45,581 nucleotides of DNA, from positions 1-45,581 of the forward strand of contig JAGOLX010000050.1 in NCBI GenBank assembly GCA_017993835.1, read 5' to 3'. This document shows, in pieces, positions 6,101 to 44,194 of the stretch; the stretch's first letter is position 1; every line of letters begins with the position of its first letter. The DNA is from Phycisphaerae bacterium (GTDB lineage: Bacteria; Planctomycetota; Phycisphaerae; Sedimentisphaerales; Anaerobacaceae). Position numbers and translations under genes: made by a program. The notes below the pieces were generated by a model that worked only from the letters and a program-made list of their open reading frames with translations, was not told the DNA's origin and searched no databases.

Positions 6101-6158
6101 ACAGGATCATCGAGGTTTGCGTTCTGTTCCAGGTGAGTTGGAGGAAGGATGTGCGGAG

Positions 6159-6277
6159 GAACGGGCGACATGTCGGATTCGAACCTCCTCCGATCCGGGT
6201 CGGGTGGTTTCCCCTGTGTGTGTCGACACAGGAAGCGTTTCGGAACGGTCACGATCTTTTTGGGAAGGAGGCATCTC
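6159..6277 (+). promoter_or_regulatory. conserved structured leader of LamG gene 1
   Basis: This 119-base leader aligns almost end to end with 10548-10662 before LamG gene 3. Both contain the hairpin CCTGTGT/ACACAGG (6213-6232 here) with different loops (GTGTCG here, GCCTCG there), then TCGGAAC, GTCACGATCT and the ribosome binding site GGGAAGGAGG. The stem is kept while the loop varies. It may be a regulatory RNA element or simply the footprint of gene duplication. Confidence 0.5.
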
Positions 6278-8056
6278 ATGCGCAGGACAGGAGTCTGTTT
6301 GGCAGGTCTATTCCTGGTTCTGGCGTCGGCAGGTGACGTCTCGGCGGGGCTCGTTGCACACTGGAAACTGGACGAGACGACCGGGACGGTGGTTTCCGAC
6401 TCCAGCGGCAACGGCTATGACGGCACGCTGGTGGGCGGCGTCACGTGGGTTGCCGGCATGATCAACGGCGCCCTGGAGTTGGACGGGACCGGGTACGCCG
6501 ATTTTGGGAACCCTGCGGGTTGGCCTTCCGGCAAGGCGGCGAGGACCTTATGCGGCTGGGGCAAGACCAACAGTGTCGACGCGGTCTGGAAATGGATTGC
6601 CGCCTATGGCTCTGCGGGCACCGACCTGGCGATGTTCATCGGCCTCAATGGCACCGCCCTCTACGGCGGGGGCTACGGCGACGACGTGTACGTTTCGAAC
6701 TTCTGGGAAGTCGGCGTCTGGCATCATATCTGCCTGACCTACGACGGCACGACGGCTCGTCTGTACGCCGACGCGGTCGAGGTGACCTCCGCCAAGAAGA
6801 ACTGGAACCTGGTCCTGAGCCGGGCCCACATCGGCCAGCAGGTCAACGATCTTTCGGAGTTCTGGGACGGCATGATCGACGATGTTCGCCTCTACAACCG
6901 GCGTCTGACGGACGACCATGTCGCCGTCGTCTGTGCGGGCGGCACGCCCGATTTCACCAAGGCCGAAAGTCCCAATCCCGTCAACGGCGCGATCGGCGTC
7001 TCGACGGCCTTGCTCCAGTGGACGAAAGGCGAGGGCGCGGCGAAGCACAACGTCTATCTGGGCACGAGCCGGGATCTGACCGAGGACAATCGCGTGGCGT
7101 CCAAAATCGGTAACGTCTTCTACTTCCATGCGGGGGGGCTGGTTGGTGGCACAACCTACTACTGGCGTGTCGACGAGATCGAGACGGACGGCGTTACGAT
7201 TCATACGGGCGATGTCTGGAGCTTCGTCGCCCAGGCGGACGTCGCCTACTATCCCATCCCGAAAGACGGCGAGAACAACGTCCAGCCCGACGCGATGCTG
7301 ACCTGGGCGCCGGGCAAAAGCGCCCTGGGACACCACCTGTACTTCGGCGGCGACCTCGATGCGGTCACCCAGGGGACGTCCGAAGCGGACCAGGGCACGC
7401 TGGATGCGGCCACGACCAGCTTCAGTACGGGGACTCTGGATCCCCTGACAAGTTACTACTGGCGGGTGGACGAGAGTAAGACGGGCAACGTCGTCCTGGC
7501 CGGACCAGTCTGGACCTTCACTACCGTCCTGCCCATCGACGACTTCGAGAGCTACAACGACGACGACAACCGGATCTTCGACTCCTGGGTCGACGGATAC
7601 GTCAATGGCACCGGCGCGACCGTCGGGAACTGGGAATCGCCCTTCGCGGAGCTGACCATCGTCCACGACGCGAATCAGGCGATGCCGCTCGACTACAACA
7701 ACGTGGATTCGCCGTACTACAGCGAGGCTGAGTATGAGTTCGGCTCCGCCCAGGATTGGACCGTGGACGATGTCAACACGCTGATCCTCTACGTCCGGGG
7801 CAAGATGGGCAATGCCCAAGTCCCGCTGTACGTCCGGATCATCGATTCCTCGAACAAAACCGCGTTGGTGGTACATCCCGACGCAGCCATCGCGACGAGT
7901 ACGAAGTGGGTCGAGTGGCAGATCCCGCTGGCGGACTTCACGAACGTCAGTCTGTCTCGCGTCAAGAAGCTGTACATCGGCCTGGGCGACAGCATGAATC
8001 CGACCGCAGGCGGCACTGGACGGATGTATGTCGATAGCATCGGCCTGGCAAAATAG
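6278..8056 (+). CDS. secreted LamG-domain protein 1
   Basis: A 592-residue exported protein. Residues 1-23 are a signal peptide with a likely cut after DVSA. A LamG/concanavalin-like domain follows (about 24-215: LVAHWKLDETTG, SGNGYDGTL, WHHICLTYDGTTARLY, IDDVRLYNR). Two FN3-like modules (about 222-415) share the endings YYWRVDEIETDGV and YYWRVDESK. The C-terminal module (about 418-592) starts DDFESYNDDDNRIFDSW and contains AMPLDYNNVDSPYYSEA and TKWVEWQIPLADF. No catalytic residues are seen, so it is probably a carbohydrate-binding or adhesive surface protein. A perfect ribosome binding site (AAGGAGG, 6264-6270) selects the start at 6278. It heads a tandem trio. Its lectin domain is closest to gene 3, its C-terminus to gene 2. 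Confidence 0.9.
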   Translation: MRRTGVCLAGLFLVLASAGDVSAGLVAHWKLDETTGTVVSDSSGNGYDGTLVGGVTWVAGMINGALELDGTGYADFGNPAGWPSGKAARTLCGWGKTNSVDAVWKWIAAYGSAGTDLAMFIGLNGTALYGGGYGDDVYVSNFWEVGVWHHICLTYDGTTARLYADAVEVTSAKKNWNLVLSRAHIGQQVNDLSEFWDGMIDDVRLYNRRLTDDHVAVVCAGGTPDFTKAESPNPVNGAIGVSTALLQWTKGEGAAKHNVYLGTSRDLTEDNRVASKIGNVFYFHAGGLVGGTTYYWRVDEIETDGVTIHTGDVWSFVAQADVAYYPIPKDGENNVQPDAMLTWAPGKSALGHHLYFGGDLDAVTQGTSEADQGTLDAATTSFSTGTLDPLTSYYWRVDESKTGNVVLAGPVWTFTTVLPIDDFESYNDDDNRIFDSWVDGYVNGTGATVGNWESPFAELTIVHDANQAMPLDYNNVDSPYYSEAEYEFGSAQDWTVDDVNTLILYVRGKMGNAQVPLYVRIIDSSNKTALVVHPDAAIATSTKWVEWQIPLADFTNVSLSRVKKLYIGLGDSMNPTAGGTGRMYVDSIGLAK

Positions 8057-8100
8057 AGATCGTACACCGTCCAAGACGGCGATCCACCAAGCGAACCACA

Positions 8101-8132
8101 GGGGGGCCCGGCGCGAGATTCCGGGGCCCCCC
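8101..8132 (+). terminator. GC-rich hairpin after LamG gene 1
   Basis: GGGGGGCCCGG pairs with CCGGGGCCCCCC through a single bulge; no uridine tract follows, so it may act as a weak terminator or mRNA 3'-end stabiliser 45 bases after the stop codon. Confidence 0.5.
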
Positions 8133-8276
8133 ATTCGCTCCAGGGGTGGCTCTAAGACCGGTGAAAGCAGGGTAGACAGAAAGGAGGGTTGCCACTATCC
8201 AGATGAGTCAAGGTACGAAACGACTGAAGTTCAGAGTTTGTTCTTGTGGAATGTCTATCCTTGGAGAGGTGGAGCA

Positions 8277-10061
8277 ATGCGCACGAAAACCGTATTGGCG
8301 TGTATCTGTATGATGTCATGTGTCCCGACGGGGATCGCAAGGGCCCAGGCTCTCGTCGGCTACTGGAACTTCGACGGGAACATGAATGACTCAACCGGCA
8401 AGAACAACGGCGTCTTCACCGGCGGCGAGCCCACCTATGTCGCAGGCAACGTGGGTCAGGCCATTTCTTTCGATGGCGTCGACGATTACTTGAGGATTTC
8501 CTCGACGGCAAATCCCTCAGCCTACTCGATTGCGGTGTGGGTGAGACCCTCTTTGACGGATGCGGCCGGCATCGTGACGCGGACGGACGCGGCGGGGCCG
8601 ACTACCGACTGGTCCCACCAATTGCGAATCCAGAACGGCGTATTCCACCATTACCTGTGGGTCGGCTCCGAGCGGAATGTGCCGGGCACGACTGTCGTGT
8701 CGCCGGACAAATGGTATCACGTCGTCATCGTGGCTATGAACAACGGACCGATGCAGCTCTATGTCAATGGGGAGGAAGACGCCGAATCGATCAGCACGGC
8801 CGGCACCCTGTGGGCCGGTGGCGACCGGATTCACGTCGGCTCCAATTCCGGGCATGGCATGGGCTGGTTCAAAGGGCTGGTGGACGACCTGTACATCTAC
8901 AACCGGGAGTTGACCGCCGTCCAGGTCAGCGATCTGTTCAACGGAACGACCCCCACCTTCGCGAAGGCCGAGAACCCGAATCCCGCCGGCGGAGCGATCG
9001 GTGTGACGACGGGCCTTCTGCAGTGGACCAAGGGCGAAGGAGCCGCGAAACATGACGTCTATCTTGGGATCAGCCCCGATCTGACCGAGGCCGATCGTGT
9101 GGTGTCCGGCACCAAGAACGTCTTCTACTATCATGTCGCCGGGCTGGTCGCCGGCGCGACGTATTACTGGCGTGTGGACGAGATCGAGATGGACGGCGTG
9201 ACGATCCATACAGGTGATGTCTGGAGCTTCGTCGCTCAGGCGGAGGCTGCGTACTATCCGACGCCCGCGGACGGGGCCAACAACGCCCAGCTCACCTCGT
9301 CGCTCACCTGGTATGCGGGCAAGGGAGCCCTCAAGCACCATGTGTACTTCGGCGGCGACGCCGACGCGGTGGCCGCAGGGACCGCGGATGTGGACCAGGG
9401 CCCATTCGATGCGGCGGCGACCACCTTCGACCCGGGGACCCTCGACGCCCTGACGACCTACTACTGGCGGGTGGACGAGAACAAGGCGGGGAATGCTGTC
9501 CTGGCGGGACCGGTCTGGAGCTTTTCTACTGTCCTGCCCATCGACGACTTCGAGAGCTACAACGACGACGACAACCGGATCTTCGACTCCTGGGTCGACG
9601 GATACGCCAATGGCACCGGTGCGACCGTCGGGAACTGGGAGTCGCCTTTCGCGGAGTTGACCATCGTCCACGACGTCAATCAGGCGATGCCGCTCGACTA
9701 CAACAACGTGGATTCGCCGTATTACAGCGAGGCCGAGTTCAAGTTCGACACGGCTCAGGACTGGACCGCGGACGGCGCCGGCACGCTGATCCTCTACGTC
9801 CGAGGCAAGATGGGCAACGCGGCGGTCCCGCTGTACGTCGGGATCACGGATTCCTCGAACAAGACCGCGTTGGTGGCGCATCCCGACGGAGCGATTGCGA
9901 CGAGGACGAAGTGGGTCGAGTGGCAGATCCCGCTGGCGGACTTCGCGAACGTGAGCAAGACTCGCGTGAAGAAGCTGTTCATCGGTCTGGGGGACAGCGA
10001 GAATCCGAGTGTGGGCGGCAAGGGCCGGATGTACATCGACACGATCTGTCTGGCGAAATAG
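8277..10061 (+). CDS. secreted LamG-domain protein 2
   Basis: A 594-residue exported protein built like its neighbours. The signal peptide (MRTKTVLACICMMSCVP...ARAQA) is about 24 residues. The LamG domain (LVGYWNFDGNMND, VAGNVGQAISFDGVDDYL, KWYHVVIVAMNNGPMQLY, VDDLYIYNRELT) is clearly different from that of gene 1. The two FN3-like modules and the C-terminal DDFESYNDDDNRIF module are nearly the same as in gene 1; 76 bases are identical (7526-7601 and 9531-9606). The variable-front, constant-back pattern suggests that the lectin domain sets the ligand while the rest presents or anchors it; that role is inferred. The start at 8277 has GAGAGGTGGAG just upstream. It ends about 90 bases before a strong terminator. 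Confidence 0.9.
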   Translation: MRTKTVLACICMMSCVPTGIARAQALVGYWNFDGNMNDSTGKNNGVFTGGEPTYVAGNVGQAISFDGVDDYLRISSTANPSAYSIAVWVRPSLTDAAGIVTRTDAAGPTTDWSHQLRIQNGVFHHYLWVGSERNVPGTTVVSPDKWYHVVIVAMNNGPMQLYVNGEEDAESISTAGTLWAGGDRIHVGSNSGHGMGWFKGLVDDLYIYNRELTAVQVSDLFNGTTPTFAKAENPNPAGGAIGVTTGLLQWTKGEGAAKHDVYLGISPDLTEADRVVSGTKNVFYYHVAGLVAGATYYWRVDEIEMDGVTIHTGDVWSFVAQAEAAYYPTPADGANNAQLTSSLTWYAGKGALKHHVYFGGDADAVAAGTADVDQGPFDAAATTFDPGTLDALTTYYWRVDENKAGNAVLAGPVWSFSTVLPIDDFESYNDDDNRIFDSWVDGYANGTGATVGNWESPFAELTIVHDVNQAMPLDYNNVDSPYYSEAEFKFDTAQDWTADGAGTLILYVRGKMGNAAVPLYVGITDSSNKTALVAHPDGAIATRTKWVEWQIPLADFANVSKTRVKKLFIGLGDSENPSVGGKGRMYIDTICLAK

Positions 10062-10147
10062 AGGTCGCACGCCGTCCATGACGGCTCGCACCAGGACGCA
10101 AGACCAGGTCCCATGGGCGAGCGTCCGGAAATCAAGACCTCCACAGT

Positions 10148-10190
10148 AGAGGACAGAGCGACCGAGGGTGGCTCTGTCCTCTTCTCTTGA
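10148..10190 (+). terminator. intrinsic terminator after LamG gene 2
   Basis: Perfect 12-base-pair stem AGAGGACAGAGC (10148-10159) with GCTCTGTCCTCT (10171-10182), 11-base loop, followed by the T-rich TCTCTTG. Confidence 0.75.
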
Positions 10191-10379
10191 ACTGCACAGG
10201 CGGTTCACCTTCGTTTGTGCGGGTGTGCTCGGGTCCTCCGGCGTTCATGGCGGGATTGTCTTACGGAACGGACAGGGCGTATCGCAATTCACGAATCTCC
10301 GATATGAACCTCGCTTTTCGCCTGGAATCAAAGGTCAGAACAGCCGAAATACCAGTTGTGACACGGGTCTCGTTTTCTG

Positions 10380-10408
10380 TTGCGGAACGGTCTGGGATAT
10401 GATACCTT
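10380..10408 (+). promoter_or_regulatory. candidate promoter of LamG gene 3
   Basis: TTGCGG, 17-base spacer, TACCTT. Resembles the candidate at 6072-6100 and would give a leader of roughly 250 bases. Confidence 0.4.
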
Positions 10409-10547
10409 GGCGCCATGGACGTTCTTGGCTCGCTTGCAGGGAGAGGCGGGTTCTCTTTGGCCGCCGCAACGCAGGTGAATCTGACGCAGCACGAGGTGCT
10501 CAGCGGGCCTCGCGAAAAGTGAACAGGTGGAAAGACGTTCGGCAGAA

Positions 10548-10662
10548 GGGCGACATTTCTCGTTCGAGGTTCCTGAAATCCGGGTGGAGCGGCTTGCCTG
10601 TGTGCCTCGACACAGGATGTGTGTCGGAACAGTCACGATCTGTTTTGGGAAGGAGGTATGTC
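10548..10662 (+). promoter_or_regulatory. conserved structured leader of LamG gene 3
   Basis: Counterpart of 6159-6277: CCGGGT block, hairpin CCTGTGT/ACACAGG at 10597-10616 with loop GCCTCG, GTCGGAACAGTCACGATCTG, and ribosome binding site GGGAAGGAGG ending five bases before the ATG at 10663. Confidence 0.5.
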
Positions 10663-13600
10663 ATGCGGAATCGAGTGATCCTTTTGGCGGGCCTACTGGT
10701 CATCTTGGGGATGGCCGGGACTGTTTCGGCGTCCCTGGTCGCGCACTGGAAACTGGATGAGACGACGGGTTCGACTGCCTCGGACTCCAGCGGCAACGGC
10801 TACGACGGCACGTTGCTCGGCGGCGCCACCTGGGTCGCCGGTATGATCGACGGCGGTCTGGATCTGAACGGCAGCACCGGGTACGTGGACTTCGGGACTC
10901 CCTCCGGCTGGCCGTCCGGCACGGCGCCGAGGACCCTGTGCGGCTGGGCCAAGACCGACATGGTCTCATCAGGCTACCGGTGGATCGCGGCCTATGGCAG
11001 CGAGGGCACCGGCACGGCGATGTTCATCGGCGCCTACGGCAGCGCCCTGTACGGCGGCGGCTATGGCGACGATGTCTCCATCAACAGCTTCTGGCAAGTT
11101 GGCGTCTGGCACCATATCTGCCTGACCTACGATGGATTGACCGCCCGGCTGTATGCCGACGGCGCACAGGTCACCTTCTCTCCGAAGACGTGGAACCTTA
11201 CTCCGAACCGTGCCCACATCGGCCAGCAGGTCAATGATTATGCCGAGTTCTGGAACGGTGCGGTCGATGACGTGCGGCTCTACGACACCGCCCTGACCGC
11301 CGCGGAGGTCAAGGCCCTGATCCCGGTCAAGCTCAAGGCGTATAACCCCGACCCGGCCGACGGCGCCACCGGAGTCAACTCGCAACTGCTCAGGTGGAAG
11401 GCCGGCGACACCGCCAAGTGGCACGATGTCTACCTGGGCACCAGCCCGGACCTGACGGCGGCCGACCGCAAGGCGTCTCACCTGGCCAAGGCCACTGCAA
11501 TGTACTACCATATGGCCGGTTTCGAGTCCGGCGTCACCTACTACTGGCGAGTCGATGAAATCGAGAGCGACGACGCCACCATCCACACGGGCGATGTCTG
11601 GAGCTTCACGACGGTCCCGGTCAAGGCGTTCAATCCGGTTCCCGCCGACGGCGCGAGATTCCAGGATGTGGGCGTGACCCTGGCCTGGACGGGCGGCAAG
11701 GGGGGTCTGCGTCACGATGTGTACTTCGGCACCGACGAAGCGGCGGTAGCCGCCGGGGCCCCCGAGACCTTCCAGATCAACCAGGTGGCTATCACGTACC
11801 AGCCTGCGATTCTGACTCCCGGCACGCTCTACTTCTGGCGCGTCGACGAGGTCAAGGCCGGCGACGTAAAGGTGCAGGGCGACGTCTGGAGTTTCCGTAC
11901 GCTGCCCGACATCGCCATCTCGAACCCCGACCTGGTCGGCTGGTGGACGTTCGACGAACAGGAGGGGACGCGGGCGATCGACTGGTCCGGCCACGGCGTT
12001 CACGGCACCTTCCAGCAGGACACCGCATGGGTCGAAGGGCAGGTCGGCGGCGCTGTACACTTCGACGGGGACGGCGACTTCGTCAACCTGACGGCCCCCG
12101 CAGAGTGGCCCGACGGCGCCGAGCCGCGAAGCATGTGCGGCTGGGCCAGAACCGACGACGTCGGCGCCATGTGGCGGTGGATCGCAGCCTATGGCTCCGC
12201 GGGGACCGGTCAGGCGATGTTCATCGGGCTCAACGGCACGACCCTCTACGGCGGAGGCTACGCCGACGACGTTTATGTAACCGGGTTCTGGGAAGCCGGC
12301 GTCTGGCACCACATCGCCTTGACCTACGATGGTTCGATGGCTCGCCTCTATGCCGACGGCGTCGAACTGACCTCGGGCGCCAAGTCCTGGAACCTCGTTC
12401 ACAGCATGGCTCGCATCGGCCAGCAGGTCAATGCCGCGTCCGAATACTGGTATGGGGCGGTCGACGACGTCCGCGTGTACAAGGTCGCCTTGACGCCCGA
12501 ACAGATCGTCGAGGCCATGCGGGGCGATCCCACCCTGGCCTGGAACCCGCTGCCCGCGGCGGGCGCCAACGTGAACATCAGCGACGCCGAGGAACTGACC
12601 TGGTCGGCGGGCGACACCGCGGCGGAACACGACGTCTACTTCGGCACGGACAAAGAGGCCGTCAAAGCGGCCGACACCGCCTCGCCCTTGTACCAGGGCC
12701 GTCAGGCCGGCACGACCTTCTCCGCGGAAGGCATGGTCGAGTTCGGCGGCGGCTCCTACTTCTGGCGAATCGACGAGGTCGAAGCCGACGGCGTCACCGT
12801 CCACAAGGGCGCCGTCTGGACGTTCACCGTCCCGGACTACCTGCTCGTCGACGAGTTCGAGACTTATACCGACCTGGCCGGCAATACGATCTACGAATCG
12901 TGGCTCGACGACTTCGGCGCGGGGGCCAGCGCCGGTTCCACGGTCGGCCACCTCGAACCGCCCTTCGCCGAGCAGACCATCGTTCACGGCGGCAAGCAGT
13001 CCATGCCGTTGGCCTACAACAACACTGCGTCGCCCTACTACAGCGAGGCCCAGTACGAGTTCGACTCCGCCCAGGACTGGACCGATTACGACGTCGACAC
13101 GCTGAGCCTGTGGTTCCGCGGCAATCCGGTGGCCTACGTGGAGACTGGTGCCAACGCCTTCAGGATCAGTGCCGCAGGGACCGACATCGGCGGCACCGCG
13201 GACCAGTGTCGCTTCGCCTACAAAACGCTCAGCGGCAACGGCTCCATCACCGCCAAGGTCGAGAGCCTCGCGATGACGAACGGCGCCGCCAAGGCGGGCG
13301 TCATGATCCGCCAGGCGCTCGACGCCGACTCGAAGAACGCGTCGGCGACGGTCACGCCGAGCAGCGGCATCGTGTTCTCATACCGAGTGTACGCAGGCGA
13401 TGTCACCACCCAGGCCAGTGCGAGCCGCCTGAAGGCGCCGTACTGGGTCCGCCTGACCCGCACGGGCGACCTGTTCAAGGCGGAGATCTCGCCCAACGGG
13501 ACCACCTGGACTGTTCTGGGCGCCGAGCAGAGTGTCTCGATGATGACCACAGTCAGTGTCGGCCTGTGCGTGACGAGCCACAACGCCACGACGCCGACCG

Positions 13601-13932
13601 TCGCGGAGTTCTCGAACGTGACGACCACCGGGACGGTCACCGGCTCCTGGCAGGTGGCGGAGATCGGCGCCGATCACCCGGGCAACGACGCGGACGACCT
13701 GTACGTCGCCATCGAGGACAGCACCGGCAAGAAGGCCATCGTGGTCCACGAGGACCCCGAGGCCGTGCTCACGACACAGTGGACGCAGTGGTCCATCCCG
13801 CTGAGCCGATTCACCGGCGTGAGCCTGTCGAAGGTCAAGAAGATGTACCTCGGCGTCGGCGACTCGAAGAACCCGGCGCAGGACGGCGCCGGCCTGATCT
13901 ACATCGACGACATCCAGGTCACGAGACCCTGA
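10663..13932 (+). CDS. large secreted multi-LamG protein 3 with nested domain insertion
   Basis: A 1089-residue exported protein. Signal peptide 1-23 (cut after TVSA); LamG 1 (24-220, LVAHWKLDETTG); two FN3-like modules (to about 420); a second LamG (about 424-620, DLVGWWTFDEQEGTRA); a third FN3-like module (625-720); then the family's C-terminal module beginning YLLVDEFETYTD (725). That last module is interrupted at about 823-993 by a separate beta-rich domain (NAFRISAAGTDIGG, DQCRFAYKTLSGNGSITA, AGVMIRQALDADSKNAS, YWVRLTRTGDLFKAEIS), which resembles the DUF1349/glycosidase-associated lectin fold. The module then resumes (DDLYVAIEDSTGKKAI, VKKMYLGVGDSKNP). It is an adhesion or glycan-binding protein by inference. 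The start at 10663 is fixed by the AAGGAGG ribosome binding site and signal peptide. Confidence 0.9.
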   Translation: MRNRVILLAGLLVILGMAGTVSASLVAHWKLDETTGSTASDSSGNGYDGTLLGGATWVAGMIDGGLDLNGSTGYVDFGTPSGWPSGTAPRTLCGWAKTDMVSSGYRWIAAYGSEGTGTAMFIGAYGSALYGGGYGDDVSINSFWQVGVWHHICLTYDGLTARLYADGAQVTFSPKTWNLTPNRAHIGQQVNDYAEFWNGAVDDVRLYDTALTAAEVKALIPVKLKAYNPDPADGATGVNSQLLRWKAGDTAKWHDVYLGTSPDLTAADRKASHLAKATAMYYHMAGFESGVTYYWRVDEIESDDATIHTGDVWSFTTVPVKAFNPVPADGARFQDVGVTLAWTGGKGGLRHDVYFGTDEAAVAAGAPETFQINQVAITYQPAILTPGTLYFWRVDEVKAGDVKVQGDVWSFRTLPDIAISNPDLVGWWTFDEQEGTRAIDWSGHGVHGTFQQDTAWVEGQVGGAVHFDGDGDFVNLTAPAEWPDGAEPRSMCGWARTDDVGAMWRWIAAYGSAGTGQAMFIGLNGTTLYGGGYADDVYVTGFWEAGVWHHIALTYDGSMARLYADGVELTSGAKSWNLVHSMARIGQQVNAASEYWYGAVDDVRVYKVALTPEQIVEAMRGDPTLAWNPLPAAGANVNISDAEELTWSAGDTAAEHDVYFGTDKEAVKAADTASPLYQGRQAGTTFSAEGMVEFGGGSYFWRIDEVEADGVTVHKGAVWTFTVPDYLLVDEFETYTDLAGNTIYESWLDDFGAGASAGSTVGHLEPPFAEQTIVHGGKQSMPLAYNNTASPYYSEAQYEFDSAQDWTDYDVDTLSLWFRGNPVAYVETGANAFRISAAGTDIGGTADQCRFAYKTLSGNGSITAKVESLAMTNGAAKAGVMIRQALDADSKNASATVTPSSGIVFSYRVYAGDVTTQASASRLKAPYWVRLTRTGDLFKAEISPNGTTWTVLGAEQSVSMMTTVSVGLCVTSHNATTPTVAEFSNVTTTGTVTGSWQVAEIGADHPGNDADDLYVAIEDSTGKKAIVVHEDPEAVLTTQWTQWSIPLSRFTGVSLSKVKKMYLGVGDSKNPAQDGAGLIYIDDIQVTRP

Positions 13933-14189: not shown

Positions 14190-15629
14190 CTATCTGCGCG
14201 CCAAGAGAGCGACGTAGCCGCCGTCATGGTCGAAGGGCCCGGTCGTCGGCAGCAGGAGCGATTCGCCCGCCAGGTTGAACTCGCCATGACCGGCCAGGAA
14301 CGCGCGGATCATGTCCTGGTTCTCCCGGCGCTCGATGCTGCACGTGCTGTAGCAGATCCGCCCGGAAGGCTTGATGAGAGTCGCCGCCCGTTCGAGCAGA
14401 CCCTGCTGGATCATCGCGATCTCCCGCACGGCCTCGGCCGTGACGCGAAATCGAGCTTCGACCCGACGGGCCAGCACGCCCGTGTTCGAGCAGGGGACAT
14501 CGAGCAGGATCGCATCGAAGGGCCCTGTCGCCCGTTGTTCCAGTTGCGCATGCGGGACGATCGTTACGCTCCTAAGGCCAACCCGGGCGAGATTCTCGCG
14601 CACCCGCTCCAGCCGTTCGGGGTCGATGTCCGTGGCGGTGACGCTCGCGGCGTCCCGGGACATCTCCGCGATCTGCACTGTCTTGGCGCCCGGCGCAGCG
14701 CAGAGGTCCAGAATCGACCAGCCAGGCTGCGGGCCCAGGATTCGCACCGCCTGCGAGGCGGAGAGGTCCTGGACGGTGAACAGGCCCTCGGCAAAACCGG
14801 GAAGCTGCGTCACGGCGTGAGGCCCGGTGATTCGGATCATGCCCGATCCCAGGATGGCGTCCTCTCGTTCGCAGTGACGCCGTGAGGCGTTATCAGGATA
14901 TGCCCTTACGGGCACACTACGAACGGGTTCGGCCTGCACGCCGGCGGCCTGGAATCTCGACAGGAGGTCATCGCCCGTCGTTCGCAGGGGATTGACGCGG
15001 AGGTACAGGCCGGGCCTGCGATTGCACGCCAGGCAGATGTCACGGGTTCGCTCGGGTCCGAACTCGTGGAGCCACTCGTCCACGAGCCACGCGGGCAGCG
15101 AGAAGCACAGGCTCAGCCAGGCGGCCGTCGAAGTCGTTGGATCGGGCAGGAAGTCCGTGTCGAACTCGCAGCCCGACTGAGGGGTTTGGGGGAGCGTCCG
15201 TCTGGCGTGGGCTCCCGCGAGGTCGACCTGGCGGTTGGCGATGTGCCGCACGATCTGGCGGAGGACCGCGTTGACGAATCCGCTCTGCTTTCTGCCGCCG
15301 GACGTGCCGACGCTGTTCACCGCTTCATCGACGATGGAATAGACGGGCGTCGCGGGATTGCAGACCAGCTCATAGGTTGCGATTCGCAGGATGCCCAGCA
15401 ACCCGGCGTCGATGCGGACGACCGGCCGGCCCGAAAACGTGGCGATCACCGCGTCGAGGGCGTTGCGGTTGCGGATCACGCCGTAAACAAGGTCGGTTGC
15501 CCGCTGTTTCTGGTCGGTCTGGTCGAGCAGGGGATCGAGCAATCGTCCGGCATAATCGCGTGTCGGGTCGAACCGGTGCAGGACCTGGGCTGCGATCACG
15601 CGCGCCGATTTGAGACTACCCGCGGTCAT
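14190..15629 (-). CDS. rsmB: 16S rRNA (cytosine-C5)-methyltransferase, RsmB type, with repeat-derived insertion
   Basis: A 479-residue enzyme that methylates 16S rRNA C967 with SAM. The N-terminal NusB-like RNA-binding domain (1-150: SARVIAAQVLHRF, QRATDLVYGVIRNRNALD) is followed by the Fmu/NOL1 catalytic domain: LPGFAEGLFTVQDLSAS, LDLCAAPGAKTVQIAE (SAM loop), VTATDIDPERLERV, LLDVPCSNTGVLAR and GRICYSTCSIERRENQ, the last two holding both catalytic cysteines. Between the two domains at about residues 236-254 is an extra stretch, RSVPVRAYPDNASRRHCERE, encoded by a dispersed repeat (14874-14924) found again at 44125-44194. The frame is intact and every catalytic motif follows, so the enzyme is probably functional. 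It is the last gene of lptB-def-fmt-rsmB, 40 bases after fmt. Confidence 0.95.
   Translation of the reverse strand: MTAGSLKSARVIAAQVLHRFDPTRDYAGRLLDPLLDQTDQKQRATDLVYGVIRNRNALDAVIATFSGRPVVRIDAGLLGILRIATYELVCNPATPVYSIVDEAVNSVGTSGGRKQSGFVNAVLRQIVRHIANRQVDLAGAHARRTLPQTPQSGCEFDTDFLPDPTTSTAAWLSLCFSLPAWLVDEWLHEFGPERTRDICLACNRRPGLYLRVNPLRTTGDDLLSRFQAAGVQAEPVRSVPVRAYPDNASRRHCEREDAILGSGMIRITGPHAVTQLPGFAEGLFTVQDLSASQAVRILGPQPGWSILDLCAAPGAKTVQIAEMSRDAASVTATDIDPERLERVRENLARVGLRSVTIVPHAQLEQRATGPFDAILLDVPCSNTGVLARRVEARFRVTAEAVREIAMIQQGLLERAATLIKPSGRICYSTCSIERRENQDMIRAFLAGHGEFNLAGESLLLPTTGPFDHDGGYVALLARR
14874..14924 (-). repeat. repeat family C inside rsmB
   Basis: Two small hairpins in tandem: GACGCC/GGCGTT and TGCCC/GGGCA, ending CACTACGAAC. 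The copy at 44125-44194 has the same two hairpins with a longer spacer between them. Half of the element is also found in mnmE at 22350-22375. Translated here in frame as part of rsmB. Confidence 0.85.
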
Positions 15630-21466: not shown

Positions 21467-22978
21467 ATGTACGATCTCCGCGACACCATCGTGGCCGTCA
21501 GCTCCGCCGCCGGGGGCGTGCGGTCCATCGTTCGCATCACCGGGCCGCAGGTGCTGTCGGTCTGCGAGCGGATCTTCGAGCCGAGTTCGGGTCCCCAAAT
21601 CGTAAATCGCAAATCGCAAATCGAGAATCGCAGAGTCCTGCCCGGGACGGTCCGCATCGCGGATGACCTGAGCGCGGACGCCTCGCTCTACCTGTTCTTC
21701 TCGCCGCACTCGTATACCGGCGAGGACCTGGCCGAGATCCACGTCCACGTCGCCCCCTGTCTCGTCGAGACGCTGATGTCGTCGCTGCTGGCGCACGGTT
21801 GCCGGGCTGCGGGACCGGGCGAGTTCACCGCCCGCGCCTACCTCCATGGCAAGCTCGACCTTGCCCAGGCGGAGGCAGTCAACGAGGTCATCGCCAGCTC
21901 GAACCGTCTCCAACTGGAGGCGGCCGAGCGGCTCCTGGGCGGTCGATTGACCCAGGCGACCGAGGGAATCCGCACGGCCCTGCTGGACACGCTGAGCCTG
22001 ATCGAGGCGGGACTCGACTTCAGCAGCGAGGACATCGAGTTCATCGGCCGAGAACAGGCGGCGGCGCGACTGTCGGACATCCAGGCGAGCCTGGAGCGTC
22101 TGCTGGCCGGAAGCATCCGATGCGAGGAATTGCTCGATCTGCCCGCGGTCGGGATCGCCGGGGCGCCGAACGCGGGCAAGAGCAACCTGCTCAACGCTCT
22201 GCTCGGCTGGGAGCGGAGCATCGTCTCACCGCAGCCCGGGACGACGAGGGATGTCCTGACCGGCGTGCTGACGACTGTTCGTGGGGCATCCCGCAGCATG
22301 GGCATCTTGCCCGTGATTCGGAATCATGGGCGGGACGCTCATGCTACTGAAACGCCTCACGGCGTCACTACGAACGGCCTCTCCGGCGTGCCGTTCCAAT
22401 GCGTCCTCTTCGACTGTGCCGGCCTGATCCCGTCACCGGACAACGTGCTGGACGAGTTGGCCCAGCGAGCGGCCGTCGAGGCCCTCAATCGCTGCGCCGC
22501 GGTTGTGTTCTGCGTTGATTCCGCGAAGGGCCACTGGGCCGAGGACCTCGCGATTCGTGGGCTCATCCAGCCGAAGCATGCGATCCACGTGGCGACAAAA
22601 TCGGATCTGATCGTCGAAGCCCAACGGCCTCGCAGGTTGAACGAGCTTGCTGGCGCGTTTGGCGTCGAGTTCCTCCCCGTGTCCGCGAGTGCGGGGGCCG
22701 GTCTGGCGGATCTTCTGCTTGCCATCGAGGCAGGCGTGCACAGCACCCCCTGCGCGGCCGATGCGAACGCCGTGGCGCTGACCGCGCGTCACGGACAGGT
22801 TGTGACAGAGGCCCTCGACAACGTCCGCCAAGCTGTCGCAGAAGTGGAGTCGGGCCATGATGAGGTGGCTGCCATGATGATCCGGGCCGCCTGCCAGACG
22901 ATCTCCGGCATCGAGCAGGTGCATCTCGACGAGCAGGTGCTCGACCGGATCTTCTCACGATTCTGCGTCGGGAAATGA
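21467..22978 (+). CDS. mnmE: tRNA modification GTPase MnmE with repeat-derived insertions
   Basis: MnmE with MnmG modifies U34 of several tRNAs. The 503-residue protein is about 45-50 longer than usual. N-terminal folate-binding domain: MYDLRDTIVAVSSAAG, RSIVRITG, GPGEFTARAYLHGKLDLAQA. GTPase domain: G1 GAPNAGKSNLLNALL (about residue 232), G2 PGTTRDVL, G3 DCAGL (normally DTAGL), G4 TKSD (normally NKxD). The C-terminal FCVGK carries the essential Cys. Two foreign stretches are read in frame: QIVNRKSQIENRR at about residues 43-56 (repeat F) and, between G2 and G3 at residues 278-304, SMGILPVIRNHGRDAHAT plus ETPHGVTTNG (repeats D and C). All functional motifs flank the insertions intact. Start ATG at 21467. 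Directly downstream of yidC. Confidence 0.94.
   Translation: MYDLRDTIVAVSSAAGGVRSIVRITGPQVLSVCERIFEPSSGPQIVNRKSQIENRRVLPGTVRIADDLSADASLYLFFSPHSYTGEDLAEIHVHVAPCLVETLMSSLLAHGCRAAGPGEFTARAYLHGKLDLAQAEAVNEVIASSNRLQLEAAERLLGGRLTQATEGIRTALLDTLSLIEAGLDFSSEDIEFIGREQAAARLSDIQASLERLLAGSIRCEELLDLPAVGIAGAPNAGKSNLLNALLGWERSIVSPQPGTTRDVLTGVLTTVRGASRSMGILPVIRNHGRDAHATETPHGVTTNGLSGVPFQCVLFDCAGLIPSPDNVLDELAQRAAVEALNRCAAVVFCVDSAKGHWAEDLAIRGLIQPKHAIHVATKSDLIVEAQRPRRLNELAGAFGVEFLPVSASAGAGLADLLLAIEAGVHSTPCAADANAVALTARHGQVVTEALDNVRQAVAEVESGHDEVAAMMIRAACQTISGIEQVHLDEQVLDRIFSRFCVGK
21596..21632 (+). repeat. repeat family F inside mnmE
   Basis: AAATCGTAAATCGCAAATCG then CAAATCGAGAATCGC, read in frame as QIVNRKSQIENR. 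Homologous AAATC-type repeats lie between genes at 13937, 16668 and 21341 in this window. Confidence 0.8.
22296..22375 (+). repeat. repeat families D and C, adjacent, inside mnmE
   Basis: Family D (22296-22348): hairpin GGGCA-TCT-TGCCC then ATGGGC/GCTCAT. Its relative at 39235-39292 (opposite strand) shares about 30 of 33 bases across GGGCATCTTGCCCGTGAT and the following GAATC. Family C half (22350-22375): AACGCCTCACGGCGTC then ACTACGAAC, as in rsmB and at 44125-44194. Confidence 0.85.
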
Positions 22979-29815: not shown

Positions 29816-30350
29816 GCGGGACAATCTATGGAACGATGTACCCCCTGGCAAGAGAGAACGTGGAGGGTCGATCCCATTCCCAGCGATCCATACAAGGGTG
29901 CAGATGATTGACGGCGCAACCGGTCGCGCCGTGTATGGCGTTGTATGGGCCGATTACGGCGGAACCGGCGATTTTGCTTGAATCCGCGGGTTCGTGGTGG
30001 TATAAGAGTAAAATGTAGTTGACCTGCGTCGGAGACCGGATGCCTCGTGCTGAGGGGCATGAGACGTGTGCGAGCGCATCCTGGGAGGAGAGTCTATCAT
30101 AGGCTGCGCCGGGACCCTTGAATGGGTTCTGAGGCGGTCAGGAAGGAGGCCTGTAGTCCTGCCACATTCCAGTTCCAGAAGTGCCAAATGAGATGCGTTT
30201 GCATGCCGGGTCCATCGTGGAGGCCGACTGTGTGGGTAGGCTGGGGGGAGACGATTCCGGATGAAGAAAAAGAGGATGGTGTTTGCTCTCGGCACCCGGG
30301 GCGGTCCGGCGGTCGATACCGCCTTGCGGGTTTCGAGAGGGAGGAGAACC
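29816..30350. other. 535-base divergent region with promoter and long leader
   Basis: No gene is supported. It contains the promoter at 29978-30006 and then a leader of about 340 bases before the LamG gene. The leader has several hairpins, e.g. ATGCCTC/GAGGGGCAT near 30040, and GGCGGT-CGAT-ACCGCC just upstream of the ribosome binding site. No known riboswitch class was recognised. Confidence 0.5.
29978..30006 (+). promoter_or_regulatory. sigma70-type promoter of second LamG cluster
   Basis: TTGAAT, 17-base spacer, TATAAG. Transcription would begin near 30013. Confidence 0.6.
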
Positions 30351-32147
30351 ATGGCGATTAGACGAGTTCTTCTGGTGGTTGTCGGAGCGGCGTTGAGTTT
30401 GCAGGGGAATGCGATTGCCGGCCTGATCGGACACTGGGCGCTGGACGACGGCGGCGGCTCCGTGGCCAAAGACAGTTCCGGCGGGGGCCATGACGGTCAA
30501 CTGGTCGACGGGCCCGTCTGGGCGCAGGGAATGATCGGCGGCGCCCTGGAGCTGGACGGCGTCAAGGCGCGAATCGATATCCCCTACTGGGCGGCGCTGA
30601 CCCCCACCAAGGGCGCGACGATGGCCTGCTGGGCGTTCCCCAAGGACACCGGGCGTGCGTGCCTCATCGGCCAGTTCGAGAGTTATGGCATGGCCCTCAT
30701 GACGGACCTGCAGCTCAAGTCCGTCGTCTGGGGCGGCGACTGGGTCCTCTCCGATGTGACGATCCCCCAGAACGAATGGTCGCACATCGTTATGACGTTC
30801 GACGTTGCGAACAAGCAGCGCAAGGTGTACCTGGACGGCAGGCTGGTCGGCGAACGGCCCGACTCGGTCGTTCCGAAGGTACAGAACAACCTGGGGATCG
30901 GCCTGTGGATCGGTTGGCCCGACTCCTGGGGCGACGACTCCTTCACCGGGATCATCGACGACGTGCAGTTGTACGACCTCATCCTGACCGGCGGTCAGGT
31001 GGCGGGCCTGGCGGCTGGAGAGATCCCCTCGTTTACGAAGGCCTTCGCGCCGAACCCCGCCGACGGGGCGCTCGATGTCACCTCGGCCCTGCTCCAATGG
31101 ACCAAGGGCGAGACCGCCACGTTGCATGACGTCTATCTCGGCACCGATCCGAACCTGACGGCGGCCGACCTCGTGATGTCTCGCCGCACCGCCGTCTTCT
31201 ACTATCATGTCGCGGGTCTTGTGCCTGGCACGAGGTACTACTGGCGCGTGGACGAGATTGACAAGGACGGCGTGACGGTCTACCCGGGCGACGTCTGGAC
31301 CTTCATGGCACGCGATGTCAAGGCATACTATCCCGTGCCCGCAGACGGTTCGTGCGACGTCTCGCCCGCTCCCACGCTCACGTGGATGCCGGGCATCGGC
31401 GCGACGAAACACCGTGTCTACTTCGGAGACGATCCGAATGCGGTCGCGGCGGGGGCTGCGGAGACGGACCAGGGCGAGTCCGCGCCTGCGGACATCGCCT
31501 TTGCCCCCGGCACCTTGGAAAGCCTGGCGACGTATTTCTGGCGCGTGGACGAAACCGTTCTCGGCGGGATCAAGGCCGGACCGGTCTGGTCGTTCACGAC
31601 CTGTCTGCCGATTGAAGATTTCGAGAGGTACACCGACGAGGGGGGCAGCCGCATCTATGAGACCTGGGTCGACGGCCTGACCACCAAGGAGAACGGTTCG
31701 ACCGTCGGGTACCTTGAGGCGCCGTTTGCCGAGCAGACCATCGTGTACGACGTGAACCAGTCGATGCCTCTGGACTACAACAACGTGGATTCCCCGTTCT
31801 ACAGCGAAGCGGAACGGGACTTCGAAAGCGCCCAGGACTGGACTGTCGATGGCGCCGGCGCCCTAGTCCTGCACGTGCGCGGCAGGCTGACCAACAAGCC
31901 AGAGCCGTTGTACGTCATGATCGAGGACCAGTCGCAGAACAGCGGCATCGTCTTCTACCCTGATCCGTCGGTTGTGACCGCGGCCCAATGGGTCACGTGG
32001 CAGATCCCGTTCAGCGAGTTCTCCGATGCCGGGGTGAAGATGACGCGTGTCAGGAAGCTGTTCATCGGCGTAGGCGACCGGGCCAACCCGACGGCGGGCG
32101 GCAAAGGCTTGATTTACATCGACGCCATTCGACTGGTCAAACCCTAA
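30351..32147 (+). CDS. secreted LamG-domain protein 4
   Basis: A 598-residue exported protein. Signal peptide MAIRRVLLVVVGAALSLQ (cut after NAIA, residue 23). LamG domain: LIGHWALDDGGGSVAKDSS, WSHIVMTFDVANKQRKVYL, IDDVQLYDLILTG. Two FN3-like modules end YYWRVDEIDKDGVTVYPGD and YFWRVDETVLGG. The C-terminal module begins IEDFERYTDEGGSRIYETW and contains SMPLDYNNVDSPFYSEAE. The second-cluster version of the C-terminal module has ERYTDE/ESYTDE in place of ESYNDD. The ATG at 30351 follows GGGAGGAG. It is first in the second LamG trio, 98 bases before gene 5, and is probably transcribed with it. Binding role is inferred. Confidence 0.9.
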   Translation: MAIRRVLLVVVGAALSLQGNAIAGLIGHWALDDGGGSVAKDSSGGGHDGQLVDGPVWAQGMIGGALELDGVKARIDIPYWAALTPTKGATMACWAFPKDTGRACLIGQFESYGMALMTDLQLKSVVWGGDWVLSDVTIPQNEWSHIVMTFDVANKQRKVYLDGRLVGERPDSVVPKVQNNLGIGLWIGWPDSWGDDSFTGIIDDVQLYDLILTGGQVAGLAAGEIPSFTKAFAPNPADGALDVTSALLQWTKGETATLHDVYLGTDPNLTAADLVMSRRTAVFYYHVAGLVPGTRYYWRVDEIDKDGVTVYPGDVWTFMARDVKAYYPVPADGSCDVSPAPTLTWMPGIGATKHRVYFGDDPNAVAAGAAETDQGESAPADIAFAPGTLESLATYFWRVDETVLGGIKAGPVWSFTTCLPIEDFERYTDEGGSRIYETWVDGLTTKENGSTVGYLEAPFAEQTIVYDVNQSMPLDYNNVDSPFYSEAERDFESAQDWTVDGAGALVLHVRGRLTNKPEPLYVMIEDQSQNSGIVFYPDPSVVTAAQWVTWQIPFSEFSDAGVKMTRVRKLFIGVGDRANPTAGGKGLIYIDAIRLVKP

Positions 32148-32177
32148 GAACGTGTGTGAGAAGGCAAGTTGTCATGG

Positions 32178-32196
32178 CATGGGCATGTTGCCCATG
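32178..32196 (+). repeat. short palindrome between LamG genes 4 and 5
   Basis: Perfect hairpin CATGGGCA-TGT-TGCCCATG, resembling the first hairpin of repeat family D (GGGCA-TCT-TGCCC). It lies 31 bases after the stop of gene 4. Confidence 0.5.
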
Positions 32197-32245
32197 AGTC
32201 GCAGGGCTATCCTGGCCCTGCCAGGACTGTGCAAGGAGAACGATC

Positions 32246-34078
32246 ATGGGTAGAAGATCCGTATGTCTGGTTCTGGTCGTGGGATTGTGCTGTATCGTGT
32301 CCCCAACCGGCTATGCAGCGACACTGGTTGGACACTGGGCGTTCGAAGGCAATGGTCAGGATGCGAGCGACAATCACAACAATGCGGCGGCAACCGGCGA
32401 CGTGAGCTACACGGCCGGGATGTACGACCAGGCCGCCGAGTTCGACGGCTCGGGCGACTACTTCCAGATCGTGAACAACGCGGGCATCCAATTGCTCGGC
32501 ACGAAGGAATTCTCCGTGGCTGTCTATGTGAATGCGAACGCTCTGGGCGTTCAGGGCATTCTCGTGCATGGCCTGGGGTGTTCCACGTGGGCCAGTTGGT
32601 TCCTCGGGATCCAGGGATGCGAGCCGGATGCAACCCTGTATACCGATCAGTTCGTCTTCGGGATTCGCACCGGCAGCTTCAGCGCCTACACAGCGGTGAA
32701 GGCGCAGGCCGTCGCGGGCGAGTGGGTACACATCGGCGTCACCCACGATGGCACGACGATGACGATGTACGTCAATGGAGAGTGGCAGGACAGTACGGCG
32801 GCCGCTCTTCCCTTCAACAGCCTGGAGAATCTGTACATCGGCGGCGACCCCGGCTGCAGCGGTCGGTCCTGGTATGCCGGCCTGGTGGACGAACTGTATA
32901 TCTTCAACCGTGCCATGAGCGAAAGCCAGGTGCGCGAGGTGGCCACCGGCGTGCTCCCGACATGGCTCAAAGCGAGCAAACCGAATCCGGCGGACGGCGC
33001 CGTGGGCGTGGCCACGCCACTACTCCAGTGGACCAAGGGGGATACGGCGACACGGCATGATGTCTATCTGGGCACCGACCCCAACCTGACGGAGGCCAAC
33101 CGTGTGGGGAATCGCCTGACCACCACCTTCTACTACCATGCGGCAGGGCTCACGCCCGGCGCAACGTATTACTGGCGGGTGGACGAGATCGACAAGGACG
33201 GTGTGACGATCTACCCGGGCGACGTCTGGAGCTTCGTGATGCAGGACGTGACGGCCTATTATCCCAATCCGGCCGACGGAGCGCGAGACGTCTCGCCCAC
33301 TCCCACACTCACGTGGATGACGGGCATCGGGGCCATCAAGCACCATGTCTACTTCGCAGCCGATGCGGATGCGGTCGCTGCTGGGGCTGCAGAGACGGAT
33401 CAGGGCGATTTCGAGTTGGCAGTCACGGCCTTCGCCCCCGGCACACTGGAGAGCCTGACGACGTATTTCTGGCGTGTCGATGAGACGGTTGCCGGCGGGG
33501 TCAAGGCCGGACCGGTCTGGTCGTTCACGACCTATCTGTCGATCGACGATTTCGAGAGCTACACGGACGAGGAAGGCGGCACGATCTATCAAACCTGGGT
33601 GGATGGCCTGACCAGCGGTGAGAACGGTTCGACCGTCGGGTACCTCGAGGCGCCGTTTGCCGAGCAGACCATCGTATACGATGCGAACCAGTCGATGCCC
33701 CTGGACTATAACAACGTGGATTCCCCGTTCTACAGCGAGGCCGAACGAGAGTTCGACAGCGCCCAGGACTGGACGGCCGGGGACGCCGGCGCACTCGTCC
33801 TCTACGTCCGAGGCAAGATGAAGAACGACCCCGAGCCGCTCTATGTGGTCATCGAAGACCAGTCGAAGAAGACCGGCACCGTGGTCCATCCCGATCCGAA
33901 GATCACAACGCGGATGAAATGGGTCGAATGGGCGATCCCGTTCAGCGAGTTCACGGAGGCAGGCGTGAACATGGCCCGCGTCAAGTCGTTGGTCATCGGG
34001 GTGGGCGACAAGACCGCCACGGAGCCTGGCGGCAAGGGCCTGATCTTCATCGACGGCATCGTGTTGACGAAGCCATAG
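32246..34078 (+). CDS. secreted LamG-domain protein 5
   Basis: A 610-residue exported protein. Signal peptide: MGRRSVCLVLVVGLCCIV, cut after GYA. LamG domain with a distinctive front: TLVGHWAFEGNGQDASDN, AAEFDGSGDYFQIVN, and an extra Cys-containing loop (HGLGCSTWASWFLGIQGC, PGCSGRSWYAG) not seen in the sister proteins; disulfides are possible. It continues with WVHIGVTHDGTTMTMYVN and VDELYIFNRAMSE. The FN3-like modules and C-terminal module (SIDDFESYTDEEGG, MPLDYNNVDSPFYSEAER) are very close to genes 4 and 6. AAGGAGAACG precedes the ATG. It is a member of the second trio, with constant back and variable front. Confidence 0.9.
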   Translation: MGRRSVCLVLVVGLCCIVSPTGYAATLVGHWAFEGNGQDASDNHNNAAATGDVSYTAGMYDQAAEFDGSGDYFQIVNNAGIQLLGTKEFSVAVYVNANALGVQGILVHGLGCSTWASWFLGIQGCEPDATLYTDQFVFGIRTGSFSAYTAVKAQAVAGEWVHIGVTHDGTTMTMYVNGEWQDSTAAALPFNSLENLYIGGDPGCSGRSWYAGLVDELYIFNRAMSESQVREVATGVLPTWLKASKPNPADGAVGVATPLLQWTKGDTATRHDVYLGTDPNLTEANRVGNRLTTTFYYHAAGLTPGATYYWRVDEIDKDGVTIYPGDVWSFVMQDVTAYYPNPADGARDVSPTPTLTWMTGIGAIKHHVYFAADADAVAAGAAETDQGDFELAVTAFAPGTLESLTTYFWRVDETVAGGVKAGPVWSFTTYLSIDDFESYTDEEGGTIYQTWVDGLTSGENGSTVGYLEAPFAEQTIVYDANQSMPLDYNNVDSPFYSEAEREFDSAQDWTAGDAGALVLYVRGKMKNDPEPLYVVIEDQSKKTGTVVHPDPKITTRMKWVEWAIPFSEFTEAGVNMARVKSLVIGVGDKTATEPGGKGLIFIDGIVLTKP

Positions 34079-34276
34079 AGACCGATTCCTTGCAGTTGGG
34101 GATCGGGGATTGCGACGCGGACCCACTAGGTCGAAGGGTGGATATCGCTCGATGGGCTTTCTGCCGCCGGCGTGAACCTCGCAGGAGGCGGGAAAACCTG
34201 CTCGGCGCGGGGGGACCGCAGTGGTTCGAACGCCGGCGGGAGAGGCTTGGTCTTCATCGGTGGCATTTCCGTGATC

Positions 34277-34310
34277 GAGGCATCCTCCGGAGGGTAGACC
34301 GGAGAGCCTC
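34277..34310 (+). promoter_or_regulatory. hairpin in leader of LamG gene 6
   Basis: Nested stem GAGGC/GCCTC enclosing CTCCGG-AGGGTAGA-CCGGAG, 25 bases before the ribosome binding site GGGAAGGAG (34336-34344). The 272-base gap holds no gene. Confidence 0.45.
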
Positions 34311-34350
34311 GGATCTGATGAGAAACGTGTGTGTGGGAAGGAGAAGTGCT

Positions 34351-36146
34351 ATGTCAAAGGTAGTGTTTCTTGTTGCCGCAATGGTGATTGCGGCGGGCCC
34401 GGCAGTCCTTGCACAAGCCCCGGACCCTGCTCTGATTGGATGGTGGCAGTTCGATGAAGGCAGCGGCGCCGTGGCGGTAGACTCCTCGGGCAAGGGAAAT
34501 GACGCCACCCTATACGGCGGCGTCCACTGGATTCCCGGCTACAGCGGGACAGCCCTGGACTTCGACGGTGTCGACGGGTATGTCGGCACCGGCAAGTCCC
34601 TGCTGGACAACGCGTCGCAGTTCACGATTTCCTTCTGGGTCGTGAGCTGGCAGACACAACCCAGCCGGACCGGACTGGTCGGGCAGAACGACCATCTCGA
34701 GATGGGATTCATGGGCGCCAGCATCGAGATCTGGAGCGCTGTCTCCGGAACGACCACCATCAAGTGGCCGTACAGTGACAGAGATTGGCATCACGCCGCC
34801 GTTGTCGGCGACACGTCCATGAAGATCTACGTCGACGGCAAGCTGCTGACCACCGGGGCCGGCACCACCAACTATGGGACGTCCACGTACCCCGTCAACA
34901 TCGGCGGCGGCGGTGTTTGGGACTCTTCCGGCAACTGGTTCACCGGGCGGATGGATGACGTTCGCGTCTACAATCGGGCGCTCTCGGCCGCGGAAGTGAA
35001 AGCCTTCATTCCCGTTCAGGTCAAGGCATACAATCCCAATCCGGCGGATGGTGCCCCGGACAAGGACCCGTCAGTCCCCCTGCTCCAGTGGGCTCGCGGC
35101 GAGACCGCGGTGTTCCATGACGTATACCTGGGGACCAGCCCGGACCTGACGGAAGCGGACCGCGTCAAGACTCACCAGCCGCAATCGGTGACATTCTACT
35201 ACCACGCCCGGGGTTCACCCCCGGCGCCAGGTACTACTGGCGCGTGGATGAGGTCGAGAAGGATGGTGTGACAATCCATACGGGCGATGTTTGGACCTTC
35301 CTGGTGCAGGCGCCGACGGCCTACTATCCCGTTCCGGCCGATAAGGCCAACGCCGTACGGCCCCATCCGACCCTGACCTGGCTGTCGGGCACTGGCGCCA
35401 CCGGGCACAAGGTGTACTTCGGACTCGAGGCAAACGCGGTTGCCGAGGGATCGCCCGGCACGGAGCAAGGGACATTCGCCCTTGCCGATGCGGCCTTCCA
35501 GCCGGGTGATCTGGACAGTCTGACGACCTACTTCTGGCGCGTGGACGAGACGGTGGTAGGCGGCGCCATCGAGACCGGACCGGTCTGGAGCTTCACCACG
35601 GCGCTGGTCATCGATGACTTCGAGAGCTACACGGACGAGGAAGGCGGCGAGATCTACCTGACCTGGATCGACGGTCTGACCACCGCAGACAACGGCTCTA
35701 CGGTCGGATACCTGAGCGCGCCGTATACCGAGCAGACGATCGTCCACGATGCGAACCAGTCGATGCCCTTCGACTACAACAATGTGGAGTCCCCGTTCTA
35801 CAGCGAGGCCTACCGGGATTTCGAGACTGCCCAGGACTGGACGGCCGGCGGAACCGATACGCTGGTTCTCTATGTGCAGGGCCGGTTGATCAACACGGCG
35901 GCCCCGTTGTTCGTTGCGGTGGAAGACTCCTCGAAGAAGTCGGCCTCCGTTGTCCACCCGGATCCGAAGGTCGTCATCGCGGAAAGCTGGGTCGAGTGGC
36001 GGATTCCGTTCAGCCAGTTTGTCGACCAGGGCGTGAAGATGGATCGTGTGCGGAAGATGTACATTCGTGTCGGCGACAAAGCTGCTACGGAGCATGGCGG
36101 CAAGGGCCGGATCTTCATCGACAGCATTCTGTTGACGAAGCCGTAG
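34351..36146 (+). pseudogene. secreted LamG-domain protein 6, disrupted by -1 frameshift
   Basis: Begins as a normal family member: signal peptide MSKVVFLVAAMVIAAGP (cut near LAQ), LamG domain (LIGWWQFDEGSGAVAVDSS, FTISFWVVSWQTQPS, WHHAAVVGDTSMKIYVD, MDDVRVYNRALSA), then the first FN3-like module. In that module at about 35206-35213 (CGCCCGGGGTT) one base appears lost compared with sister genes. The first frame then ends at 35271, while the correct continuation YYWRVDEVEKDGVTIHTGD runs in another frame to 36146 (ESYTDEEGGEIYLTW, SMPFDYNNVESPFYSEA). The total of 1796 bases is one short of gene 4 (1797). It may be a real pseudogene or a sequencing or assembly indel. If restored, the protein would be 598 residues. 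Confidence 0.8.
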
Positions 36147-44008: not shown

Positions 44009-44124
44009 GAATCTACTCGGAAAGGGTCTTCCGTTGCGGCGACATGCCCCAACTTTCAACAGCCGCTATCATACGGTTCCGCACCCCCGATGTCAACGGA
44101 CTCGCGGCCGATTCTGCGAATGTG

Positions 44125-44194
44125 TTTGTAGTGACGCCGTAAGGCGTTATCTTCCCCGCGCATGGAGATATGCCCTTACGGGCACACTACGAAC
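44125..44194 (+). repeat. repeat family C, intergenic copy
   Basis: GTAGTGACGCCGTAAGGCGT, a 16-base spacer, then GATATGCCCTTACGGGCACA and CTACGAAC. Ends 8 bases before the stop codon of the Hsp70-like gene and follows the kdsB 5' region. Same family as in rsmB and mnmE. Confidence 0.85.

Follow-up and report, generated by a model that had tools for sequence, protein, structure and literature searches.

A GTAG-tagged palindromic repeat read in frame within rsmB of a Phycisphaerae bacterium, in a loop that holds unrelated repeats in related species

The DNA analysed here (the window; 45,581 nt) is contig C42 of a 6.37-Mb draft genome of 115 contigs (G000), and its rsmB gene contains a palindromic element made of an A-type and a B-type REP arm (Table 1). 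As originally predicted, the repeat is read through in frame: the reading frame is uninterrupted across it, and both halves of RsmB retain Pfam matches (NusB, RsmF-B ferredoxin-like and Methyltr_RsmB-F). The ferredoxin-like match stops at residue 240, which is position 62 of the 74 in the profile, which puts the insert within the last part of this domain; in the structural alignment to E. coli RsmB/Fmu (1sqf), the insert loop likewise forms a gap at the end of the ferredoxin-like domain.

The element had been placed at 14874-14924, where it is indeed present, but that start is 7 nt short: its ends are GTTC at 14867 and GAAC at 14924. It had also been described as two tandem hairpins, which captures only part of its structure, since the two hairpins (5-bp stems, 4-nt loops) are enclosed by a 10-nt outer stem formed by the inverted ends. 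Because these ends pair, the single-stranded DNA folds as a cloverleaf, and the fold on the coding strand is more stable than that of any shuffled sequence (z = -5.7). The tag of the A arm in this copy is GCAG, one mismatch from GTAG, and that of the B arm is GTAG (consensus A arm, GTTCGTAGTGACGCCGTNAGGCGTTATCTTC; consensus B arm, GTTCGTAGTGTGCCCGTNAGGGCATATCTTC). An Rfam search of the window returned no family.

Table 1. Positions of the rsmB element, its host gene and related copies in the window.
Feature	Positions	Strand	Description
rsmB (host gene)	14190..15629	-	16S rRNA m5C methyltransferase, 479 aa; Pfam; structure match 1sqf
A/B REP dimer in rsmB	14867..14924	-	58 nt; read in frame as VRSVPVRAYPDNASRRHCE
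A-type GTAG REP arm in rsmB	14867..14894	+	GTTCGcAGTG ACGCC GTGA GGCGT TATC
B-type GTAG REP arm in rsmB	14897..14924	-	GTTCGTAGTG TGCCC GTAA GGGCA TATC
mnmE (second host gene)	21467..22978	+	tRNA modification GTPase
Composite in mnmE	22277..22375	-	in frame, GTPase beta2-beta3 loop
Intergenic A/B dimer	44124..44194	+	71 nt, the usual genomic length

The nearly identical intergenic element originally placed at 44125-44194 begins one nucleotide earlier, and its positions 44169-44193 match the B half of the rsmB copy at 25 of 25 nucleotides (0.00 such matches expected by chance); its spacer is longer than that of the rsmB copy (elements of 71 vs 58 nt). The composite within mnmE consists of a truncated B arm, a nested GTAGCATGGGC-type REP dimer (22293-22347) and a complete A arm (22345-22375). 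The claim that the half shared with rsmB is translated there in another frame is correct: the A arm reads ETPHGVTTN in mnmE, not DNASRRHCE. A second repeat-like insert in mnmE (21598-21634, near residues 45-56, translated as QIVNRKSQIENRR) is built of AAATCGN units that resemble the GATTT repeats at 16672 and 21338.

Allowing up to two mismatches, the A arm occurs 114 times in the genome, against a single match for the reversed control pattern, and the A/B family numbers 59-159 copies per genome in eight of nine genus members, with seven in G006; the family is found mainly in this planctomycete genus. Genes were called with an iterated hexamer model, which recovered rsmB, fmt and mnmE, and the surroundings of 92 distinct A/B copies were classified: 68 fall between genes, 9 overlap the end of a gene and 15 are contained in open ORFs. 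The comparison with random insertion that the original prediction had proposed thus gives 15/92 in-gene copies, vs about 81% of the same loci being coding (P about 1e-40), and the outcome that would have spoken against it, most copies lying out of frame in broken genes, was not seen. Because the in-gene class consists of open frames by construction, broken genes were looked for separately, and none occurred among the five tightest co-directional gene pairs flanking copies, a five-case sample rather than a census, in which Pfam, with matches for nine of the ten proteins, pointed to distinct genes. About 73 of the 92 copies are dimers arranged as inverted pairs. The family therefore has the features of GTAG-tagged REPs: GTAG at the foot of the stem, 5-bp stems (within the 5-13 bp typical of such REPs) with 4-nt loops, many dispersed and mainly intergenic copies, and a predominance of inverted pairs.

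In the orientation found in genes, the B arm has one open frame (VRSVPVRAY) and the A arm two (DNALRRHYE or ITPHGVTTN), and the usual 71-nt dimer runs into a stop. The lengths of in-gene dimers are shown to be under selection: dimers of at most 63 nt make up 5/9 of those in genes vs 0/64 outside (p = 8e-6), and lengths divisible by 3 make up 6/9 vs 11/64 (p = 0.004). Of the two frames open to the second arm, one is used by six dimers and the other by two. Most in-gene copies lie between or beside Pfam domains, in linkers, in loops, after a lipobox-like signal or at the C terminus, and the host genes encode ALGX-like, ThuA plus metallophosphatase, DUF4139, M56 peptidase, NuoCD-like, sulfatase, BatA/VWA, FG-GAP plus 3-keto-disaccharide hydrolase and melibiase proteins. 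In some of the 15 in-gene copies, notably four (L012, L069, L086, L092), the A arm belongs to a C-terminal tail, possibly an extension produced by gene calling. The four genes named are paralogues that share NAQKSTGPRT near the N terminus and have other repeats adjacent.

The A arm is antisense in all in-gene dimers but one, which lies in a C-terminal tail, and among the 92 loci it is also antisense in 33 of the 40 dimers between co-directional genes. Replication strand was considered as the cause of this bias and rejected: neighbouring copies along a contig share a strand in 21 of 42 cases and lie on opposite strands in the other 21. Orientation therefore follows local transcription.

The genome contains several Y1 genes, including RAYT-type ones, although none of the intact RAYT-type genes examined has an A/B REP next to it. 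The RAYT-like gene L032 has no REP at all within 1.5 kb, and L032-type genes across the genus have no A/B arm within about 1.5 kb; L034 is accompanied by one GTAGGGTGGG unit. Among transposase-type loci, A/B units occur only near a degenerate IS200-like gene (L033) and within two IS200-type loci (L160, L179). Most genus members have a complete or almost complete L032-type gene; G005 and G008 have fragments of it, and the REP-poor G006 has only a 16-aa relic. Homologues also occur in distant genera that lack the A/B repeat. This distribution fits a link to the A/B repeat but is no proof of one. L035 (G000:C37:113423-116611) is a Y1 transposase gene amid six copies of GTAGCCCAGCCGCCCNCGGCTGGG, one of which is read as VAQPPSAGES within the ORF. 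It was rejected as the cognate RAYT, these six REPs belonging to another family, and is apparently the RAYT-REP locus of that family.

We compared RsmB across 25 orthologues of the bacterial family, counting insertions of at least 6 aa. Extra residues (8 to 69) occur at this loop in 13 of the 25, vs four such insertions anywhere else in the protein. Each loop was scored with repeat consensuses and compared with 60 shuffles. A recognisable repeat from one of five unrelated families is present in 11 of the 12 longest loops: the A/B repeat (G000, G001, G004 and, inverted with a similarly short spacer, G005), a GTAGGGTGGG-type repeat (G002), two GTAGCATGGGC-type units plus a B-arm remnant (G003), CGTC-type repeats (G017, G023, G031) and ATCGAGA-type direct repeats (G020, G021, G031). 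The loop of G008 was left unassigned, and the short loops gave no repeat against the consensuses and shuffles. The palindromic families, for which copies were counted, are multicopy in their own genomes. An insertion ancestral to all RsmB, the other outcome named beforehand as contrary, is at odds with the 12 orthologues that have no insert of this size there and with the unrelated repeats of the others. In the RsmB tree, (G005,(G000,(G004,(G006,G001)))), where bootstrap supports range from 89 to 100, the insert is ancestral to the five-species clade; the insert-free G006 is nested within this clade and so has probably lost its copy. The remnant of a B arm in G003, a member of the sister clade, may make the insertion older still.

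Three further genes (mnmE, the NuoCD-like gene and batA) were chosen because they have an insert in G000; the test was whether another species has a different repeat at the same place, and with rsmB this is so in all four genes. The mnmE loop flanked by TTRD and DCAG varies between species: G000 has the A/B plus GTAGCATGGGC composite, G004 and G001 have dimers of GTAGGGTGGGG and GTAGGGTGGGC, respectively, G005 and G006 have other sequence, and the site is empty in G002, G003, G007 and G008. Similarly, the site in the NuoCD-like gene is occupied by A/B in G000 and by GGATTGCGGATT-type repeats in G002 and G008, and is empty in G001, G004 and G006. In BatA the occupant is A/B in G000 and, in G003, a GGGCGTCCCGCCC-type sequence. 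BatA of G003 and G008 (L201, L202) has a second insertion of 35-39 aa at one place near residue 621, possibly a shared loop. Certain loops of housekeeping enzymes might be long-lived docking sites for a succession of unrelated REP families, which settle there, replace one another, are inverted and disappear again with the frame kept, partly by insertion of REP into REP and with orientation set by local transcription rather than replication, a generalisation to which we give somewhat less than even odds.

Such recurrence might also reflect seeding as well as tolerance, if REPs prefer existing REPs as targets. The GTAGCATGGGC-type dimer nested in an A/B spacer in mnmE of G000 and in several intergenic copies, and the two GTAGCATGGGC-type units beside a B-arm remnant in rsmB of G003, point this way, although the loops of G002, G017, G020, G021 and G023 each show a single identified family and no older REP, whose remnants could have decayed; we regard seeding as a tentative possibility, rather doubtful as it stands. 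Nested GTAGCATGGGC-type dimers occupy A/B spacers at L008, L010, L022, L025, L074 and window positions 22277-22375, so REPs appear to insert into REPs.

We favour, with a probability of about 0.86, the reading that the rsmB segment is a high-copy, non-autonomous GTAG REP dimer (REPIN-like) that is tolerated in a permissive loop, and that the DNA rather than the peptide is spreading, as the original prediction had it; spreading is judged here from copy number, no transposition having been seen. A Y1 (HUH) transposase of the RAYT type would probably copy the element in trans, and the copies would land widely, most insertions in genes presumably being purged by selection. The copies surviving within genes would be those open in one frame that leave the downstream frame intact, in loops, in linkers, just behind signal peptides or at termini. 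In rsmB, where insertion and spacer trimming took place in an order that we infer, the copy has passed down through several species, presumably as a neutral passenger, and nothing points to a function of the peptide, and the repeat is apparently translated as a harmless extra loop.

Selection for the peptide or for an mRNA hairpin, co-opted for example in translation control of rsmB or in RNA binding, is improbable. It could draw on the inheritance of the insert through the clade, whose insert-bearing members are 71-77% identical to the window RsmB in protein sequence, and on the insert DNA being more conserved than its flanks among G000, G001 and G004 (90-93% vs 77-81%, a comparison that rests on only 4 to 6 differences per pair), higher conservation that would also fit gene conversion or constraint on DNA. 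However, G006 has lost the insert, G005 has it inverted and other species have unrelated repeats in its place, and the frame of the second arm differs between genes (6 vs 2), which upholds the earlier suggestion that the peptide itself is not selected. We give next to no credence to a chance palindrome-like long loop or an assembly artefact: the window does come from a draft assembly, but the same insert occurs in the independent assemblies G001 and G004, its exact 25-nt match to the intergenic copy was expected zero times, and the loop repeat scores far above shuffles.

A tolerated REP dimer of this sort has close precedents. GTAG-tagged REPs have a short stem, form inverted dimers and are mostly intergenic, downstream of genes (Di Nocera et al. 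2013, PMC3733652); some units lie in frame inside ORFs, including in a PVC bacterium, and neutral insertion in loops or linkers was suggested for these (PMC3733652). The A/B element resembles them in tag, stem, inverted dimers, mainly intergenic location downstream of genes, some in-frame units and occurrence in PVC bacteria, but differs in that its arms are of different subtypes in a fixed A/B pair, that no transposase gene flanked by the A/B family was found, and that unrelated families recur at one loop across orthologues; the single comparable case described for them is recB of two Xanthomonas species, with different REPs at about the same site, and other genes have them at different sites (PMC3733652). 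With REPINs and RAYT it shares the inverted REP pair, presumably as a mobile non-autonomous unit, and RAYT-type genes in the genome, but the A/B arms are not identical and the RAYT is only a candidate (PMC3116915, PMC2817692); for want of a flanking transposase, we do not claim REPIN/RAYT membership. Rickettsia RPEs, the classic example of palindromic DNA found in frame in conserved protein genes and also in intergenic regions, are alike in both locations, and the RPE peptide in guanylate kinase is probably neutral or slightly harmful (PMC2229807). RPEs are 105-146 bp and unrelated in sequence to the GTAG-tagged A/B element (57-153 nt), and RPE-4 and RPE-6 are CGTC repeats (PMC3733652), so RPE membership is not claimed either. 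CGTC-tagged REPs (PMC3733652) do occupy the same RsmB loop in G017, G023 and G031, as members of another superfamily than the A/B element of the window rsmB. Because in-frame REPs are already published (PMC3733652; RPEs, PMC2229807), the A/B element is a new family of a known kind.

New here are the orientation bias and the finding that unrelated REP families turn up repeatedly in one loop; multi-family loop reuse in four genes, loss in a REP-poor species and length selection are added evidence. Earlier reports treated in-frame REPs one gene at a time; in the present case a single loop within one bacterial family shows five repeat kinds, an empty state and loss. The RsmB loop marks a spot where the protein tolerates invading DNA, and allows a natural test of tolerance alone as the reason for the persistence of selfish DNA in coding sequence; together, RsmB, MnmE, BatA and the NuoCD-like protein give a map of insertion-tolerant loops. 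A warning also follows for annotation: VRSVPVRAY, ITPHGVTTN, VIPAQAGIQ and GWAVPTT in annotated proteins are repeat-derived and no evidence of homology.

Further repeats lie elsewhere in the window. Copies of the L035-type REP are found at 40811-40834 and 43516-43539, the latter within a predicted gene (43199-44008, minus strand) and possibly an in-frame insert. Diverged paralogous genes in tandem (repeat families D1-D17) form two clusters, at 6149-13932 and 30261-36146, and a 68-nt inverted repeat pair, 85% complementary, lies near both contig ends (1795-1862 and 43090-43157).
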